From: Anaerofustis stercorihominis
GTDB taxonomy: Bacteria; Bacillota; Clostridia; Eubacteriales; Anaerofustaceae
DNA length: 43,469 nt
NCBI RefSeq assembly: GCF_005844425.1
Contig: NZ_SPHL01000015.1
Coordinates: 1-43,469, forward strand
Reading direction: 5' to 3'
The notes beneath the pieces are model-generated. The model was not told the origin of the DNA and ran no database searches. It was given only the letters and a program-made list of their open reading frames with translations. Positions 24,954 through 35,198 of the stretch are shown here, piece by piece (positions within the stretch are counted from its first letter, which is position 1; each line of letters opens with the position of its first letter). Both the position numbers and the translations under genes were made by a program.

Positions 24954-24982
24954 TTTACAAGGTATAAAAACACAGGTATAAT
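24954..24982 (+). promoter_or_regulatory. promoter of the DUF4430/ECF transporter operon
   Basis: TTTACA (24954-24959), 17 bp, TATAAT (24977-24982), about 28 bp before the start codon. No riboswitch fits in this short leader. Confidence 0.75.
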
Positions 24983-25010: not shown

Positions 25011-26048
25011 ATGAAAAAAAGAAATTTTAAAAAGAATTTACCATACATTATACCCATATGTATTTTAGTATTATTTGTTGTATTTAAGCTTTTTACAATG
25101 GATATTTCCTTTGGAGAAATAAAATGTAATTTAAGTGATAATCCGAATATTGTAAGTTTATTAAAGGAAGCAAAAAGCAAAGAAAAAACGCTTCAAATAA
25201 ATGGAGCAATAGGGGATACTTCTTACTGTTATGAATATGAAAGCAGTGATATTACAGGATATGAAAACAGTGACTTAAATTTAAAAAGTTTTGATGAATA
25301 CAATAATAATTTAAAAGAAACTTTGGGATGTGAAAATATTGTATCATTTGAATACAGTGAAAATATAAAATTAAACGGAACTCCTAAGTTAGTATTTTAT
25401 AATTTAAAAGAAGGCAATTATTCTTTATTTGAAATAAGAGAAGGTAATATTTATTATTTGAGCGATACAGTTACAAATAAAAATGAAGTATCTTTTGATG
25501 TATCCAATACTTCTTACGTTTATGTTTTGGCAAGTGGAGTAGATGATGATACTATTTCAAAATTAAAAAATGATAAACTTGAAATAAAAACTTCTTCAGA
25601 TGAAGAAAAGACAAAACTTATTGCTGCAACAGAAAAAAAAGGCGAAGAAGAAAATAATCAAAATAAGAAAGAATATTACTTTAATTTAACTATTGAATGT
25701 AAGGAAGCAGTAGAAAATATTGATTTAATAAAAGAAGAAAAAAGAAAGTATATTCCATCAAACGGATATATATTTGGACCTAAAAAGGTTGTTTTTTATG
25801 AAGGAGAAAATCTCTATGAAGTTCTTTTCAGAGAGTTAAAAAAAGCAGGAATTCCTTTTGATGCGAGTGGGTATAGTGAGTATTCTACGGCATATGTAAA
25901 GGGAATAAATAATCTATATGAATTTGACCTTGGGGCATCTTCAGGTTGGGTTTATTATGTAAATGGAAAGCAGCCTAATTATGGTTGTTCTGATTATATT
26001 CTAAAAAGTGGTGATGAGGTCGTTTGGAAATATATTAAAGGAAGGTAA
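25011..26048 (+). CDS. membrane-anchored protein with transcobalamin-like C-terminal (DUF4430) domain
   Basis: 345 residues. A basic N-terminus and one hydrophobic helix (about 11-30) act as an anchor or uncleaved signal. A middle region of about 190 residues is unassigned, and a Lys/Glu-rich linker follows (about 195-220). The C-terminal domain (about 222-345) has DUF4430 features: VVFYEGENLYEVLFRELKKAG, then YVKGINNLYEFDLGASSGW and VNGKQPNYGCSDYILKSGDEVVWKY. DUF4430 corresponds to the C-terminal beta domain of transcobalamin and intrinsic factor. It is first of four genes with an ECF transporter. The inferred role is capture of cobalamin at the cell surface. Confidence 0.82.
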   Translation: MKKRNFKKNLPYIIPICILVLFVVFKLFTMDISFGEIKCNLSDNPNIVSLLKEAKSKEKTLQINGAIGDTSYCYEYESSDITGYENSDLNLKSFDEYNNNLKETLGCENIVSFEYSENIKLNGTPKLVFYNLKEGNYSLFEIREGNIYYLSDTVTNKNEVSFDVSNTSYVYVLASGVDDDTISKLKNDKLEIKTSSDEEKTKLIAATEKKGEEENNQNKKEYYFNLTIECKEAVENIDLIKEEKRKYIPSNGYIFGPKKVVFYEGENLYEVLFRELKKAGIPFDASGYSEYSTAYVKGINNLYEFDLGASSGWVYYVNGKQPNYGCSDYILKSGDEVVWKYIKGR

Positions 26049-26051
26049 AAT

Positions 26052-26936
26052 ATGAATAACAGGGGGATGTTTGTAAGTTATAGCTCATATGTAAATATTC
26101 TATATTTTATAGGTGTAATGGTTATAAATATGTTTTTTATGCACCCTGTTATTTTATTTATTTCTTTTGTTTCTTCATTAACCTATAGCCTTTATTTAAA
26201 CGGAATGAAAAGCTTAAAATTTGATTTGTTTGTTTTATTTCCTCTTTTATTATTTATCATTCTTGTAAATCCTTTGGTTAATCATCAAGGCACTACGATA
26301 CTTTTTTATATAAATAATCAAATGATAACAAAAGAATCAATTTTATATGGAATATTTGCCGGAATGATGATAATAAATATGTTTTTGTATTTTTCATCTT
26401 TTAACAAAATTATGACAGGGGATAAAATAATGTCTGTCTTAAAGTTTGTTTCAAGAAAGTTATCTTTAATTTTTGTAATGACTTTAAGATTTGTTCCAAG
26501 ATACAAAAACGAATTTAATAAAATTAAGGTGTCTCAACAGTGTTTAAATGAAGGGCTTAATGATGGTAATTTCTTTGACAGAATAAGACATGGTTCAAAT
26601 ATGATGTCTTCTCTTGTTACTTTTGCCCTTGAGGATGGAATTGATACTGCAGATACGATGATTGCAAGGGGATATGGACTAAAAAATAAAAGTAATTATA
26701 AAAGGGAAAAATTTACAAGTGATGATAAAGTATTTTTTACATTGATGATAATACTTTTTTTGATTGTAACAATTGGAATTATTAGAGGACAGTTTTATAT
26801 TAACTTTTTCCCTGATTTTATTTTTACGGAATTATCTATACATAATGCTTTATATTTTGTAAGTTATTTTATTTTTGCAATGGTTCCTATGATAATTGAA
26901 ATAAAGGAGGCTTTGGTTTGGAATTTATCAAAATAG
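26052..26936 (+). CDS. ECF transporter T component (EcfT/CbiQ family)
   Basis: A 294-residue integral membrane protein with about six hydrophobic segments. It carries the coupling-helix motif with Ala-Arg-Gly in DTADTMIARGYGLK, which docks on the ATPase. The second Ala-Arg-Gly-like site is less clear. EcfT links the ATPase to the S component. Its 3' end overlaps the ATPase start by 19 bp. As it is encoded with its own A and S genes, this is a dedicated (group I) ECF system. Confidence 0.9.
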   Translation: MNNRGMFVSYSSYVNILYFIGVMVINMFFMHPVILFISFVSSLTYSLYLNGMKSLKFDLFVLFPLLLFIILVNPLVNHQGTTILFYINNQMITKESILYGIFAGMMIINMFLYFSSFNKIMTGDKIMSVLKFVSRKLSLIFVMTLRFVPRYKNEFNKIKVSQQCLNEGLNDGNFFDRIRHGSNMMSSLVTFALEDGIDTADTMIARGYGLKNKSNYKREKFTSDDKVFFTLMIILFLIVTIGIIRGQFYINFFPDFIFTELSIHNALYFVSYFIFAMVPMIIEIKEALVWNLSK

Positions 26937-28495
26937 ATAATCTTAGTTTTTCTTATCCACATAAAAAGAATGTTTTAAAAAATATCTCTTTTAACATTGA
27001 TAAGGGGGATTTTGTTTTGCTGTTTGGTAAATCAGGAAGCGGAAAGTCTACTTTATTAAAACATTTAAGCATAAGCCTTGCTCCTTACGGAGAGAAAAAA
27101 GGAAAAATATATTATAAGGGAATTGAAAGTGAGAATATTTCTTTAAAGGAAAGATGTGAAAAAATAGGGTATGTAATGCAGAATATTGATGCACAAATTG
27201 TAACCGATAAAGTATGGCATGAACTGGCTTTTACACTTGAAAACTTAGGATATGATAATGCAAAAATGCACAGCAGAATGGCAGAGATAACAAGTTTCTT
27301 TTCTATGTCATCTTGGCTTGATAAAGATACTTCGTCTCTTTCCGGAGGAGAAAAACAAAAATTAAATTTAGCTGTTAGTATGCTTACTTTTCCAGATGTT
27401 CTTCTTTTAGATGAACCTACTTCTCAACTTGACCCTGTAATGAGAGATGAGTTTATAAGGCTTTTGAAGAGAATAAATGAAGACTACGGTACGACAATTA
27501 TTATAACGGAACACTCCTTTGAAGGTATTATTGAAAATGTGGATAAATGTGTACTTATTGATAATGGAAGATTCGTATTTAACTCAGATAAGCTATCCTT
27601 AACTGATGAAATAATAGAAAATAAAAAGCAATATTATGAATTTCTTCCAGCTGTTACAAAATTTGGACATGAGATTTTAAATAAAAATAATATTTTAACG
27701 GTAAATGAAGCAAAGAAGAATTTAATAAAATCAAATATTAATTTAAAAGAAAAGATTGGAAAAATAAAACATAGAAGCAAAGAAAGCATAATTGAAGTTA
27801 AAAACGTTTCTTTTAAATATAGTAAACTTGAAAGAAATATTTTAAAAGATGTATCTTTAAAAATATATAAAGGGGATTTTTTATCTATTATAGGTCCAAA
27901 TGGTGTTGGTAAAAGTACATTTTTAAATTTGCTTATTGGTTCTTTGAAGCCAAATAAAGGGAAAATTATTAAAAATGGAAAAATAGCGATGCTTCCGCAA
28001 AATCCCGTAAGTCTTTTTATTAAATCAAAAGTAAAAGATGATTTATATGATATTGATGAAAATTATATGGAGCTTGTAGATGAGTTTGATGTTTCTTCAT
28101 TAATCGAATCTCATCCTTATGATTTATCCGGAGGAGAGATTGAACTAATGGCTCTTATTAAGGTGCTTTTGGTTAATCCGGATATAATCATTTTAGATGA
28201 ACCAACAAAGGGAATGGATGTAATATATAAACAAAAGCTTGGTGGGTTTCTTAATAAGCTTAATGAAAAAGGTATTACGATAGTTATAATAAGCCATGAT
28301 TTAGAGTTTATTGGAAAATATATTCCGTACTGCTCTATTATGTTTGATATGGATATTATGCCTTTTAAAGAAACCAGAGAGGTTTTTGGGGAAAGTTATT
28401 TTTATACTACCGATATAAATAGAATTACAAAGGATAATTTAAAAAATATAATAAATTTACATGAGGTTTTTATAGATGAAAACAAAACAGTATAA
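26918..28495 (+). CDS. ECF transporter ATPase, two fused ABC domains (A-A')
   Basis: A 525-residue tandem ATPase. Domain 1 has FGKSGSGKST, LSGGEKQKLNLA and LLLDEPTSQLD; domain 2 has IGPNGVGKST, LSGGEIELMALI and IILDEPTKGMD. Both sites look catalytically complete, though the second signature region is divergent. Translation starts at TTG (26918), placed after AAAGGAGG, inside the end of ecfT. It powers import through the T and S proteins. The gene overlaps the S-component start by 20 bp, indicating tight coupling. Confidence 0.93.
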   Translation: MEFIKIDNLSFSYPHKKNVLKNISFNIDKGDFVLLFGKSGSGKSTLLKHLSISLAPYGEKKGKIYYKGIESENISLKERCEKIGYVMQNIDAQIVTDKVWHELAFTLENLGYDNAKMHSRMAEITSFFSMSSWLDKDTSSLSGGEKQKLNLAVSMLTFPDVLLLDEPTSQLDPVMRDEFIRLLKRINEDYGTTIIITEHSFEGIIENVDKCVLIDNGRFVFNSDKLSLTDEIIENKKQYYEFLPAVTKFGHEILNKNNILTVNEAKKNLIKSNINLKEKIGKIKHRSKESIIEVKNVSFKYSKLERNILKDVSLKIYKGDFLSIIGPNGVGKSTFLNLLIGSLKPNKGKIIKNGKIAMLPQNPVSLFIKSKVKDDLYDIDENYMELVDEFDVSSLIESHPYDLSGGEIELMALIKVLLVNPDIIILDEPTKGMDVIYKQKLGGFLNKLNEKGITIVIISHDLEFIGKYIPYCSIMFDMDIMPFKETREVFGESYFYTTDINRITKDNLKNIINLHEVFIDENKTV

Positions 28496-29183
28496 ATCTT
28501 TTATAATTTCCTTTGTTGTACTTTTTATATTGGTTCCTATAATTATTTTTATATCTCAAAGTAACAATTCAAATTACCTTTTACCAAGTTTTATGATAAT
28601 TTTTGTTTCCTTTTTACCTTTTGTGTATATTTTTGAAAATAAAAAGATAAGAGTGAGGGAAATTGTATTAATATCAAGCATGTCTGCAATTGCAGTACTT
28701 GGGAGAATTGTATTTTTCTTTGTTCCTCAAATAAAAGTCACTTCAGCAATTATAATTGTTTCAGCGGCTACTCTTGGGAGTGAAGCAGGATTTTTTATTG
28801 GCGTTGTTTCTGCCTTTGTTTCAAATTTCTTTTTTGGACAAGGAAGTTATACAATATGGCAGATGTTTGCTTTTGGTATGGTTGGTTTTTTAAGCGGAAT
28901 AATTTTTAAGTCTGAAAGGATAAAAAACAATAGAATTTTAGTTTGTATAATAGGTTTTATTTTAACATTTTTAGTTTATGGAGGTGTTGTGAATTTTCAT
29001 TCACTTGTTTTATATACTTCTAAAATTAACTTTGAAAGTTTTAAGGCGGTATACCTATTATCACTTCCTTTTGACTTTATTCATGCTTTATCAACAAGTG
29101 TGTTTTTATGGTTTATACAAAGACCTTTTTTTGAAAAAATTGATAGAATAAAAGAAAAATATGGTATCATATATCATAGATAG
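28476..29183 (+). CDS. ECF transporter S component, probable cobalamin (CbrT-like)
   Basis: A 235-residue membrane protein with two N-terminal hydrophobic helices before an ECF S-type core (VREIVLISSMSAIAVLGRI, GSEAGFFIGVVSAFVSNFFFGQG, and later helices). S components bind the vitamin. Assignment to cobalamin rests on context: the cobalamin riboswitch that follows, the transcobalamin-like proteins on both sides, and the resemblance of the gene set to CbrTUV-type B12 systems. The sequence alone would also allow another vitamin. Confidence 0.78.
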   Translation: MKTKQYKSFIISFVVLFILVPIIIFISQSNNSNYLLPSFMIIFVSFLPFVYIFENKKIRVREIVLISSMSAIAVLGRIVFFFVPQIKVTSAIIIVSAATLGSEAGFFIGVVSAFVSNFFFGQGSYTIWQMFAFGMVGFLSGIIFKSERIKNNRILVCIIGFILTFLVYGGVVNFHSLVLYTSKINFESFKAVYLLSLPFDFIHALSTSVFLWFIQRPFFEKIDRIKEKYGIIYHR

Positions 29184-29209
29184 AATAAAGTTTTTTGTTT
29201 ATATAACTT

Positions 29210-29345
29210 ATTAAATGTTAAGGGAAGCAGGTTGGAATCCTGCACAGTCTGTGCTGCTGTATTAGTGTAGTAAATATCAATATGCCACTTAAAGGGAAGG
29301 CGGTATTTACGTTGAAACTTAAGTCAGAAGACCTATTTAATAAGA
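29210..29345 (+). ncRNA. cobalamin riboswitch
   Basis: The conserved B12-riboswitch landmarks appear in order: AAGGGAAGCAGGTTGGAATC and the CTGCACAG that pairs back, GCTGCTGT, GCCACTT with AAAGGGAAGG, and the closing GTCAGAAGACCT. It lies in the 273-bp gap between the S-component gene and the alpha/alpha-barrel gene, ahead of a terminator hairpin. When bound by cobalamin it is expected to reduce expression of the downstream gene. The GGTTGGAAT loop differs slightly from the commonest GGTGAAA form. Confidence 0.92.
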
Positions 29346-29407
29346 CCTATAAACTCTACACAGGAAATAGAGTATGGTAAAAAATTATATGGTATTTTTT
29401 ACTGCTC

Positions 29408-29436
29408 TAAGCCTGAAAAAAGGCTTATTTTTATTT
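29408..29436 (+). terminator. riboswitch expression-platform terminator
   Basis: TAAGCC (29408-29413), loop of eight, GGCTTA (29422-29427), then ATTTTTATTT-like T-rich sequence, just before the AGGAGG site of the next gene. A second possible stem, GTAAAAAA/TTTTTTAC, lies immediately upstream and could act as the competing anti-terminator element. Confidence 0.68.
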
Positions 29437-29456
29437 AAAATTAGAGGAGGAAAAAT

Positions 29457-30548
29457 ATGAAACAATTAAGAAAAAGAATTATTTTTGCACTACTTTCTTT
29501 ATTGATGGTTCTATCTTTTAGTATGCCTGCTTTTGCATCTAATGCACAAGAAACTTTAACAACTTCACAAAAAGCATTAAATGCCATAAATTCTGCAGCA
29601 ACTTTTAGACTTTCAACTCTTGAAAATCCATCAACAGGAAACAATAACGAAGGAGATTGGTTTATCTTTGCACTTCAAAGAGGTGATGTAGAAATGGCAA
29701 ACAAAGAAGAATATACAAATAAGTATATTTCTAATGTAAAAAGCAATATTTCATCTCTTCAATATCCGTCAGATTACGCAAGAGTGATAATAACTCTTAC
29801 ATCTCTTGGTGTTGATTGCAGCAAAGAATTTGAAGGGGTAAATTTACTTGAAAAAATGCTTGCAGATAAAGCAAGTTTTGAAGGTACATTTGCTTCAAAT
29901 GCAATATATGCTCTTATTGCCCTAAATTGTAATGACTATGATATTCCAAGCACATGCGATATTACACAAGATGATTTGGTATCTGCTTTACTTTCTTATA
30001 AAGATGAAAAAACAAATCTTTTCTATTTTAGTACAGATAAAACATATGGAACGGATTTAGATACAACATTTATGGCAAATCAAGCTTTAAGTTTATGTAA
30101 TGTAAGTGATGATAATTTAAAAACACAAATTCAAAATGCAAAAACAGCTTGTATTGAAACAATAAAATCTTCACAAAGCGCAAGCGGAGCAATTAGTTCT
30201 TATGGAATGGATAATGCTTGTACAACAGCTCAAGCAATTGTTGCATTAACACAAATGGGAGAAGATGTTAACAGTTATCAAAAAGACGGTAAAACATTAG
30301 TAGACGGCCTTCTTTCTATGCAAGATAGCAATACAAATGGTTTTATAGGATATACAGGTAAGGCGGATATTCAAACGACTGATCAAAGTTTATATGCGTT
30401 AGTTGCTTATTCAAGAAGTGAACAAGGCTTAAATACTTTATTTGATATGAACAGTACAGATACATTATCTTTCGATCCTGATTCATTCTCTGCTAAAGTA
30501 GATAAATTCTTTGATAATATAAAAGGATTTTTCCAAAGATTATTTTAA
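29457..30548 (+). CDS. secreted alpha/alpha-barrel protein resembling the transcobalamin/intrinsic-factor alpha domain
   Basis: 363 residues with a clear signal peptide (cleavage after AFA, residue 27). The mature part carries repeated helical hairpins of the prenyltransferase/squalene-cyclase type: FASNAIYALIALNC, TTFMANQALSLCN, TTAQAIVALTQMG and TTDQSLYALVAYS. The same fold forms the cobalamin-binding alpha domain of intrinsic factor and transcobalamin. It ends in an amphipathic aromatic tail (KVDKFFDNIKGFFQRLF). It is directly controlled by the cobalamin riboswitch. The inferred role is extracellular cobalamin binding together with the DUF4430 protein. Confidence 0.82.
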   Translation: MKQLRKRIIFALLSLLMVLSFSMPAFASNAQETLTTSQKALNAINSAATFRLSTLENPSTGNNNEGDWFIFALQRGDVEMANKEEYTNKYISNVKSNISSLQYPSDYARVIITLTSLGVDCSKEFEGVNLLEKMLADKASFEGTFASNAIYALIALNCNDYDIPSTCDITQDDLVSALLSYKDEKTNLFYFSTDKTYGTDLDTTFMANQALSLCNVSDDNLKTQIQNAKTACIETIKSSQSASGAISSYGMDNACTTAQAIVALTQMGEDVNSYQKDGKTLVDGLLSMQDSNTNGFIGYTGKADIQTTDQSLYALVAYSRSEQGLNTLFDMNSTDTLSFDPDSFSAKVDKFFDNIKGFFQRLF

Positions 30549-30560
30549 TATTTAAATAAG

Positions 30561-30593
30561 AAAACAGAAGTTTTAAGGCTTCTGTTTTTCTTT
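30561..30593 (+). terminator. intrinsic terminator of the B12 locus
   Basis: AAAACAGAAG (30561-30570), 8-nt loop, CTTCTGTTTT (30579-30588), then a T-rich tail. Confidence 0.87.
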
Positions 30594-32517: not shown

Positions 32518-33855
32518 ATGAACAAAGGAGAATTAATTTTAGCGTATTTAGAAAATCGTGATTTTAGAAGTATAAAAAATACGATAAAAGACATGAATTT
32601 TGCGGATATTGCTCTTCTTTTTGATGAAATATCTTTAGAGGATATACCGCTTATTTTTCGTGTTTTACCAAAAGATACGGCAAGTGATGTTTTTGTTGAA
32701 CTTGATAATGAAAAAAAAGAATATTTAATAAGAAGTTTTACGGATGAAGAATTAAAAGAAGTTTTAGATTTAATGTTTGTTGACGATACTGTAGATATTA
32801 TAGAAGAAATGCCGGCAAATGTTGCAAAAAGAATTTTAAAACATACTAAATCCGATACAAGAAAATTAGTTAATGAGATTTTAAAATATCCTGAAGATAG
32901 TGCCGGAAGCATTATGACAACTGAGTTTGTTTCTCTTAGAAAAGATATGGATGTTTATGAAGCTTTTTTAAAGATTAAGGCGACCGGTGTTGATAAGGAG
33001 ACTATATATACTTGTTATGTAACAGATAATACAAAAAAGCTTATAGGTATTGTTTCCACTAAAGATTTACTTCTATCCGACATGGAAGAAAAAATAGAAG
33101 ATATAATGGAAACAAATATAATATATGTAAATACCGTGGATGATAGAGAAGAAGTTGTAAAAGTATTCGATAAATATGACTTTTTGGCAGTTCCGGTAGT
33201 TGATAATGAAAGAAGACTTATAGGTATTGTAACAGTTGATGATGCTATTGATGTAATCGTACAGGAAGATACAGAAGACTTTCAAAAAATGGCTGCTATG
33301 GCTCCAAATGAAGATACTTATTTTAAAACTTCTGTCTTTACACATGCAAAAAAGAGATTTGGATGGCTATTATTTTTGATGCTATCTGCAACTTTTACTC
33401 AAACTATAATAACCCATTATGAAGCCGCTTTTGCAACTATACCTCTTCTTGCTGCGTTTATTCCTATGATAAGTGATACAGGCGGAAATTGTGGTTCTCA
33501 AAGCGCTACAATGATAATAAGAGGTATGTCTTTAGATGAAATAAGACCAAGAGATATTTTAAAAGTAATATTAAAGGAAAGTGAAATATCTTTAATGGTC
33601 GGTATTGTCTTAAGTGTTGTAAATGGAATAAGAATAATTATTACATATCATAGTTTTGTTTTGGCATTGGTTCTTGGACTAACTTTAATGTGTACTGTAT
33701 TTATGTCGAAACTTTTAGGCGGTATTCTGCCAATGATAGCAAAACAGGTTCATTTAGACCCTGCTGTTATGGCATCTCCGCTTATTACAACCATAGTTGA
33801 TGCATGTTCTTTGATAATATATTTTAATATAGCAATGCATATACTAAAAATTTAA
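32518..33855 (+). CDS. mgtE: magnesium transporter MgtE (first copy)
   Basis: 445 residues: an N-terminal alpha-superhelical domain (about 1-125), two CBS domains (about 130-255) that sense cytosolic Mg, a plug helix and five membrane helices. The selectivity region PMISDTGGNCGSQSATMIIRG is present. MgtE is a Mg channel that closes at high internal Mg. ATG 32518 has no Shine-Dalgarno; a strong AAAGGAG lies 6 nt inside the gene instead, so the true start is uncertain. The N-terminus aligns with the second copy from the ATG within two residues. It is followed after 11 bp by a paralogue. Confidence 0.94.
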   Translation: MNKGELILAYLENRDFRSIKNTIKDMNFADIALLFDEISLEDIPLIFRVLPKDTASDVFVELDNEKKEYLIRSFTDEELKEVLDLMFVDDTVDIIEEMPANVAKRILKHTKSDTRKLVNEILKYPEDSAGSIMTTEFVSLRKDMDVYEAFLKIKATGVDKETIYTCYVTDNTKKLIGIVSTKDLLLSDMEEKIEDIMETNIIYVNTVDDREEVVKVFDKYDFLAVPVVDNERRLIGIVTVDDAIDVIVQEDTEDFQKMAAMAPNEDTYFKTSVFTHAKKRFGWLLFLMLSATFTQTIITHYEAAFATIPLLAAFIPMISDTGGNCGSQSATMIIRGMSLDEIRPRDILKVILKESEISLMVGIVLSVVNGIRIIITYHSFVLALVLGLTLMCTVFMSKLLGGILPMIAKQVHLDPAVMASPLITTIVDACSLIIYFNIAMHILKI

Positions 33856-33866
33856 AGGAGAGTTAT

Positions 33867-35198
33867 ATGGAAGAGAAAATATTAGAATTACTTAAACAAA
33901 GAAATTTTTTTGAGTTAAAAAAATTATTGGAAACATTGAATCCAGCCGATATAGCTTCTCTTTTTGATGAAATATCCACAGAAGATGTATTGCTTGTTTT
34001 TAGATTATTACCAAAAGAAACAGCTGCGGATACTTTTGTTGAATTGGATAATGATAATCAAGAATATCTTATAAAAGCATTTAGTGACGAAGAACTTAAA
34101 GAAGTATTAGACTTATTATTTGTGGACGATACTGCGGATTTGGTTGAAGAAATGCCTGCAAACGTAGCAAAGAGAGTACTTAAACATACAGATATTGCTA
34201 CAAGAAAAATGATTAATGAGATACTTAAATATCCTGAAGATAGTGCCGGAAGCATTATGACAACTGAGTTTGTGTCTTTAAAAAAAGATATGACTGTTTT
34301 AGATGCTTTAAATAAAATAAAAGCAACAGGGGTAGATAAGGAAACGATATATACCTGTTATGTAACAGATAATACAAAAAAACTAATTGGTTTGGTTTCC
34401 ACAAAAGATATTTTATTATCCGATATGGATAAATATATTGAAGATATAATGGAAACGAACATAATCTATACTCATACTCTTGCAGACCAAGAAGATGTAG
34501 TTAAAATGTTTGATAAGTATGACTTACTTGCAATTCCTGTTGTTGATAAAGAAGACAGGCTTATCGGTATTATCACGGTTGATGATGCTATCGACGTAAT
34601 CAGAGAAGAAAATACCGAAGACTTTGAAAAAATGGCAGCTATGATGCCAAGTGAAGAAAGTTATTTTAAGACTTCTGCATTTAAACATGCAAAAAACAGG
34701 ATAATGTGGCTTTTATTTTTGATGTTATCAGCAACAATGACTCAAGCTGTTATAACTCACTATGAGGCTGCTTTTGCAACTGTTCCTTTACTTGTAGCTT
34801 TTATTCCAATGATTACAGGAACAGGAGGAAACTGCGGTTCTCAAAGTTCTACAATGATAATCCGTGGGCTTGCTTTGGATGAAATAGAACCTAAAGATAT
34901 ATTTAAAGCTATGTTAAAAGAAGGAGAAATAGGTCTTTTGGTAGGTGTTGCTCTTGCTGTAGTAAACGGAATAAGAATAATGATTTTTTATCATGATTCC
35001 GTATTGGCTTTAGTGCTTGGAATAACACTTGTTGCAACCATTATTATGGCAAAATTAATGGGGTGTGTTCTTCCTATATGTGCAAAGAAATTAAAACTTG
35101 ACCCTGCTATTATGGCTTCACCATTAATTACGACTCTTGTTGACACTTGTTCTATTTTAATTTATTTTAACGTTGCACTTCAAATTATGAATTTATAA
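33867..35198 (+). CDS. mgtE: magnesium transporter MgtE (second copy)
   Basis: 443 residues, with the same N-domain, CBS pair and membrane domain (PMITGTGGNCGSQSSTMIIRG) as the preceding gene. The two proteins are clearly a tandem duplication. A 47-nt stretch is identical between them (32884-32930 and 34227-34273), in a region coding for the end of the N-domain. This copy has a normal AAAGGAG site 6 nt before ATG. Both would be co-transcribed from the consensus promoter; whether they form mixed dimers is unknown. Confidence 0.94.
   Translation: MEEKILELLKQRNFFELKKLLETLNPADIASLFDEISTEDVLLVFRLLPKETAADTFVELDNDNQEYLIKAFSDEELKEVLDLLFVDDTADLVEEMPANVAKRVLKHTDIATRKMINEILKYPEDSAGSIMTTEFVSLKKDMTVLDALNKIKATGVDKETIYTCYVTDNTKKLIGLVSTKDILLSDMDKYIEDIMETNIIYTHTLADQEDVVKMFDKYDLLAIPVVDKEDRLIGIITVDDAIDVIREENTEDFEKMAAMMPSEESYFKTSAFKHAKNRIMWLLFLMLSATMTQAVITHYEAAFATVPLLVAFIPMITGTGGNCGSQSSTMIIRGLALDEIEPKDIFKAMLKEGEIGLLVGVALAVVNGIRIMIFYHDSVLALVLGITLVATIIMAKLMGCVLPICAKKLKLDPAIMASPLITTLVDTCSILIYFNVALQIMNL

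Follow-up and report, generated by a model that had tools for sequence, protein, structure and literature searches.

A probable corrinoid uptake locus of Anaerofustis stercorihominis with a dedicated ECF importer and separate DUF4430 and toroid proteins

Introduction

In the usual description of energy-coupling factor (ECF) importers, the membrane S component is the sole binder of the substrate. The locus analyzed here raises the question of whether an ECF importer for vitamin B12 (cobalamin) may also be served by extracellular proteins that take hold of the vitamin first. It is located at positions 25011-30548 on the plus strand of a 43,469-nucleotide stretch of DNA, hereafter named the window, which corresponds to positions 1-43,469 of the forward strand of contig NZ_SPHL01000015.1 of Anaerofustis stercorihominis (assembly GCF_005844425.1). 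The locus consists of five genes and one RNA element: a gene for a DUF4430 (SLBB, transcobalamin C-terminal-like) protein, three genes for an ECF transporter, a cobalamin riboswitch, and a gene for a secreted protein predicted to form an alpha/alpha toroid.

In transcobalamin, cobalamin is sandwiched between a toroid and a beta-grasp domain (summarised in PMC1796856). The beta-grasp superfamily that includes SLBB/DUF4430 was defined by Burroughs, Balaji, Iyer and Aravind in 2007 (PMC1796856). In that paper, bacterial fusions to a toroid, operons with a CbiO-like ATPase and a CbiQ-like protein, and second paralogous SLBB proteins are noted. Carriers of these genes are described there as lacking B12 synthesis, the proteins are proposed to scavenge B12 from the environment of Gram-positive bacteria, and the combined toroid-SLBB version is proposed to have been transferred from bacteria to animals.

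A preliminary description of the locus, made from its DNA sequence, proposed that the two halves of the animal carriers are made here as separate extracellular proteins that clamp cobalamin and deliver it to the S component, and regarded such a capture step as a new mechanism. That last claim is not supported, as such capture had already been proposed in the 2007 paper for bacterial toroid/SLBB proteins whose genes accompany those of CbiO and CbiQ. We consider it quite probable that the locus serves corrinoid uptake, with a dedicated ECF importer and a two-protein carrier, DUF4430 protein plus toroid, that binds cobalamin, most likely jointly, and hands it to the S component.

Results

A CbrT-like S component in a predicted dedicated ECF importer

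The first four genes of the locus are separated by small gaps or overlaps, as expected for a single operon. The first gene (25011..26048) encodes the DUF4430 protein of 345 residues, in which PF14478 matches residues 265-342 with 68.9 bits (cut-off 23.8). A hydrophobic segment at its N-terminus, read off the sequence, would act as a membrane anchor, and we infer that the protein is held in the membrane with its domain on the outside. The next genes encode the transmembrane coupling protein EcfT (26052..26936; CbiQ, PF02361, 39.7 bits, cut-off 25), EcfA (26918..28495), which has a TTG start and carries two ATP-binding cassette (ABC) ATPase domains in a single chain (two ABC_tran stretches, with matches to ECF ATPase models), and the S component (28476..29183; PF12822, 39.4 bits, cut-off 30.7). 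The order of the genes and the place of the riboswitch recur in a congener.

The Pfam matches of the S component itself are generic. When the profile of its family was compared with all PDB chains, CbrT (6fnp_A) was found with an E-value of 1.8e-17 and the next S component, 4hzu_S, with 1.2e-4; by this comparison the protein is closer to CbrT than to the other solved S components. Membership in a non-cobalamin family was the outcome that the preliminary description had set against its own reading, and the homology search gave CbrT, an S component for which B12 import has been shown experimentally (PMC5997447), instead.

The remainder of the genome provides further indications. The riboswitch aptamer (RF00174) at 29196..29354 on the plus strand (67.9 bits, gathering threshold 31.5) is the only one in the genome. 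CobS was not found in the genome, and a credible BtuC is absent from it; the single, weak FecCD match did not qualify as part of a BtuFCD system and, in our reading of its neighbouring genes, belongs to a zinc/manganese-type ABC importer cluster. Next to a MetF-like gene, the genome encodes a 793-residue MetH-type protein that contains a B12-binding domain and would be a consumer of the vitamin; no full-length MetE was found, and the methionine-synthase-2-like proteins present are short, about 370-400 residues. Taken together, the kinship with CbrT, the sole riboswitch, the lack of CobS and of a credible BtuC, and the presence of MetH point to cobalamin or a close corrinoid as the likely substrate, in agreement with the B12 uptake function proposed in the preliminary description.

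That the substrate is instead another corrinoid, for example cobinamide or a non-cobalamin cobamide, appears improbable to us. ECF-CbrT imports cobinamide as well as cobalamin (PMC5997447), and cobalamin riboswitches accept several corrinoids (accessible parts of PMC9600662), but without CobS the cell could probably not complete a precursor such as cobinamide, and MetH requires a finished cobamide. The assignment to cobalamin is strong, and EcfT, EcfA and the CbrT-like S component would constitute a dedicated ECF importer for it.

The toroid protein

The last gene of the locus (29457..30548, plus strand) encodes a stand-alone protein of 363 residues, with a signal peptide at about residues 1-27 and an amphipathic helix at about residues 341-362. 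No significant Pfam family was detected for this protein. An AlphaFold model based on an alignment of 61 homologues obtained a predicted local distance difference test score (pLDDT) of 93.2 and a predicted template modelling score (pTM) of 0.89, and the fold predicted by this model is an alpha/alpha toroid. In a Foldseek search of the model against the PDB, rat transcobalamin (E-value 1e-5) and haptocorrin were the two best matches, with terpene cyclases interleaved. All of the parts that the preliminary description had recognised between 25011 and 30548 are thus present: the DUF4430 protein and the full ECF transporter according to Pfam, the riboswitch according to RF00174, and the secreted barrel according to the structure model.

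Several results weigh against the toroid as part of a B12 carrier. The Pfam family of eukaryotic cobalamin-binding proteins, PF01122, matches it with only 12.7 bits (cut-off 25), and at E<=0.01 this family matches 0/62 toroids, while SQHop_cyclase_C models match 54/62. In VIA-align, drimenyl diphosphate synthase comes first (Z 23.3), transcobalamin reaches Z 19.6 over 259 residues, and terpene cyclases and sugar epimerases outrank it; therefore, the toroid fold alone is not specific for a B12 binder as opposed to an enzyme. By sequence, the window toroid falls outside the animal family PF01122. Neither the toroid sequence profiles nor the profile of the DUF4430 domain reached transcobalamin in searches of the PDB; only structure and the Pfam model link the two proteins to transcobalamin. 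Weak DUF4374/BtuG-like matches of the toroid (E-value 0.16) were taken as chance.

These results raise the alternative that the toroid protein is exported as an enzyme, of the terpene-cyclase or glycoside-processing type, and lies after the riboswitch by chance. Squalene-hopene cyclase families are indeed its best sequence-profile matches, and the Z-scores of cyclases and epimerases exceed that of transcobalamin. However, the class II cyclase motif DxDD is present, at any position, in only 2/62 family members, while 59/62 contain DxDxT (DLDTT in the window protein). In addition, the protein has a signal peptide, and across loci its relatives are consistently associated with DUF4430, CbrT-like ECF genes and cobalamin riboswitches. 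We regard an enzymatic role as very improbable.

The conserved residues kept by the window toroid include W68, R109, D202, T204, Q259 and Q310. Its C-terminal helix, AKVDKFFDNIKGFFQRLF (residues 341-362), is strongly amphipathic, with a hydrophobic moment above that of any other part of the protein; it could hold the toroid at the membrane. SLH, sortase and lipobox signals are absent from the protein.

Toroid and DUF4430 on separate chains in many Bacillota

The window genome contains exactly one detected DUF4430 domain and one detected toroid, encoded by separate open reading frames (ORFs), and no fusion was found. To place this arrangement among relatives, the best 80 of 460 loci obtained in a genome scan with the S-component alignment were used, a set biased toward the subfamily of the window. 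They come from Clostridium, Paenibacillus, Desulfotomaculum and many uncultured Clostridia, and gene content was counted in the 64 loci whose sequence extends more than 5 kb beyond the S gene on its upstream side.

EcfT and EcfA together with a solo toroid and a solo DUF4430 protein, and no fusion, are encoded in 28/64 loci. Another 13/64 have EcfT, EcfA, a solo toroid, a solo DUF4430 protein and a toroid-DUF4430 fusion; DUF4430 plus a fusion is found in 10/64, DUF4430 only in 4/64, and the rest differ. A solo DUF4430 gene lies at most two ORFs away from almost all stand-alone toroid genes (46/48), and every one of the 48 is in a locus with DUF4430. Ten stand-alone toroids were checked against Pfam: none contains a DUF4430 domain, and several have surface domains in its place (SLH, Big_2 or dockerin, for example). 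The split arrangement, which the preliminary description had seen in one locus, is therefore real as a genomic pattern, and it is common in many Bacillota beyond the window genome.

Two further gene arrangements were observed. In three genomes of the family of the window (L053:4365-12274, L054:2028-9952 and L055:3493-10898), a solo toroid and a large secreted protein are encoded in a MoxR ATPase-DUF58-transglutaminase operon; in L054, the large secreted protein has a DUF4430-like match, and the MoxR operon adjoins a DUF4430-EcfT-EcfA-S cluster. In two other loci (L066:9374-14508 and L062:9418-14180), an additional S component, longer than the first and containing an insertion, is encoded beside a very large protein in which no toroid was detected; the large protein of L066 carries DUF4430 and a PQQ-type propeller. 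The second S component of L066 and L062 may possibly belong to a sister transporter with a different corrinoid preference.

Predicted riboswitch control of the surface proteins

The riboswitch sits after the S gene and directly before the toroid gene, and would therefore control only the toroid in the window genome; the DUF4430-ECF operon has no riboswitch and its own promoter-like site. An intrinsic terminator-like hairpin with a T-tail (29408..29427, plus strand; 7 pairs followed by TTTTTATTTA) has the riboswitch on one side and the toroid start codon on the other. Because riboswitch and terminator directly precede the toroid gene, the toroid would be made when B12 is scarce, and the ECF/DUF4430 operon would be expressed from a promoter of its own.

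A covariance model was built from six cobalamin riboswitches, that of the window among them, and searched in the 80 related loci. It gave 35 matches at E<1e-3, in 27/80 loci. For 31/35 of these riboswitches, the first downstream ORF on the same strand encodes a toroid, a DUF4430 protein or a toroid-DUF4430 fusion. Such genes make up 17% of the ORFs in the 27 riboswitch loci, which gives a binomial probability of 2e-20 for 31/35, a value that is in truth weaker because the loci are related. Three of the remaining four have a short overlapping ORF ahead of a toroid or fusion gene, and one, in locus L124, precedes a PQQ beta-propeller gene. In the CbrT-like ECF/DUF4430/toroid system, B12 control thus usually falls first on the surface proteins.

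The L124 locus (L124:5169-10702) has a cobalamin riboswitch followed by genes for a secreted PQQ beta-propeller, a DUF4430 protein and ECF proteins, with the propeller in the usual place of the toroid. In L104, L113 and L135, a tandem pair of cobalamin riboswitches is present ahead of a single toroid or fusion gene.

Natural fusions and the geometry of the putative clamp

Some sampled loci encode natural bacterial proteins with a toroid followed by a DUF4430 domain, the domain order of the animal carriers. A model of one such fusion (L087, 441 residues), in which no ligand was included, obtained a pLDDT of 91.4 and a pTM of 0.71. PDB ranks 1-15 for this model are all transcobalamin, haptocorrin or intrinsic factor (E-values 1.5e-12 to 3.2e-10), and the next match has an E-value of 2.8e-5. 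The isolated beta domain of transcobalamin matches the DUF4430 part of the model at 2.6 Å over 107 columns. The placement of the domains, however, differs from that in the holo crystal structures, with a root-mean-square deviation (rmsd) of about 14-15 Å over both domains when set against transcobalamin, and a clamp geometry was not reproduced. VIA-align reports haptocorrin with Z 18.2 over 352 residues and an rmsd of 14.1 Å; in view of this rmsd, the match was taken to reflect similarity of the single domains rather than a common arrangement. The relative domain placement in the model is probably unreliable. Therefore, and as the ligand is absent, the model neither supports nor refutes a clamp.

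By analogy with the animal carriers, it is plausible that the DUF4430 protein and the toroid of the window clamp cobalamin between them. We hold this with moderate confidence, mainly because many relatives keep a solo DUF4430 protein beside a complete fusion. A solo DUF4430 protein encoded next to EcfT must therefore do more than complete a solo toroid, perhaps docking or hand-over.

A relay without a clamp would fit the same cobalamin system: the DUF4430 protein would be a receptor in the membrane, either binding B12 or docking to the ECF transporter, and the toroid an independent surface binder. The coexistence of a solo DUF4430 gene beside EcfT with a complete fusion, in the 10 loci with DUF4430 plus fusion and the 13 more that also have a solo toroid, is in line with a relay, as are the replacement of the toroid by a beta-propeller in L124 and the restriction of the riboswitch to the toroid in the window. 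Yet no other DUF4430 domain or toroid was detected in the window genome, so that any beta-grasp partner that the toroid requires must be the 25011 protein, and toroids were never seen without DUF4430 in the locus. On balance we find a relay unlikely, though of the alternatives considered it is the one to be taken most seriously, and joint binding of cobalamin by the two proteins is the reading that we prefer.

Other features of the region

The best promoter-like site of the region, TTTACA-17-TATAAT (11/12 consensus matches), precedes the DUF4430-ECF operon at 24954..24982 on the plus strand; promoter-like sites are no more numerous across the region than in shuffled sequence, and this one is identified by its consensus match only. 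An inverted repeat 3' of the toroid gene (30561..30588, no strand assigned) is a likely terminator. Further downstream, at 32518-35198, two adjacent genes encode proteins (445 and 443 residues) whose C-terminal ends are very similar; the first protein resembles an MgtE-type magnesium transporter.

Discussion

The layout of the locus suggests the following course of uptake. At low B12, transcription would continue past the riboswitch terminator and reach the toroid gene. The toroid would be exported by means of its signal peptide, and the amphipathic helix at its C-terminus may keep it close to the membrane. Fold, co-occurrence and natural fusions suggest that the toroid and the membrane-anchored DUF4430 domain would then bind cobalamin jointly, and the operon structure suggests that their complex would hand it to the CbrT-like S component. 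Import would be powered by the ECF module, as established for ECF-CbrT. The genes, the kinship of the S component, the riboswitch, the toroid fold and the repeated co-occurrence of toroid and DUF4430 are results of computation; cobalamin binding by the two proteins, the clamp between them and the hand-over to the S component are the steps that we infer. The wider proposal, that in many Gram-positive bacteria a solo toroid and a membrane-bound DUF4430 protein close over cobalamin and deliver it to a CbrT-type S component, is tentative, and we would not yet count on it.

The system of the window resembles the SLBB/toroid systems described in 2007 in having beta-grasp and alpha/alpha toroid domains that are predicted to be extracellular, ECF genes alongside them, and a proposed role in scavenging B12. 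It differs from what the accessible parts of that paper (PMC1796856) describe, namely fusions and second SLBB paralogues, in that its toroid and DUF4430 are on separate chains only. With ECF-CbrT of Lactobacillus delbrueckii (PDB 6FNP, PMC5997447) it shares the S-component family and ECF-driven import; the L. delbrueckii ECF module is common to several S components, whereas that of the window is dedicated and encoded together with DUF4430 and a toroid. The animal carriers transcobalamin, haptocorrin and intrinsic factor (PF01122 plus DUF4430) likewise combine an alpha/alpha toroid with a beta-grasp domain, but in the window these are two chains, and the toroid is below the PF01122 cut-off. BtuG and BtuH of gut Bacteroides differ from the window proteins in having other folds and in supplying BtuB/BtuFCD of a Gram-negative cell. 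The likeness is that they too are surface proteins that catch B12 for an importer (accessible parts of PMC6143338 and PMC8941943).

The core idea of B12 scavenging by such proteins is a prediction published in 2007, and the window contains a real and widespread variant of the predicted system. The present analysis adds the CbrT assignment, the rule for the riboswitches, the frequency of the split form, and the separate control of the toroid in the window genome. In our literature search, whose coverage mostly left out subscription journals, no experimental work on a bacterial pair of DUF4430 and toroid proteins turned up.

If the toroid and the DUF4430 protein indeed bind and deliver cobalamin, the ECF system would have an extracellular capture step. 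Its transporter would be served by a binding protein of its own outside the cell, of which the toroid would be the B12-regulated part. Bacterial counterparts of intrinsic factor and transcobalamin would then be open to direct testing, and the split form offers separable parts for binding experiments.

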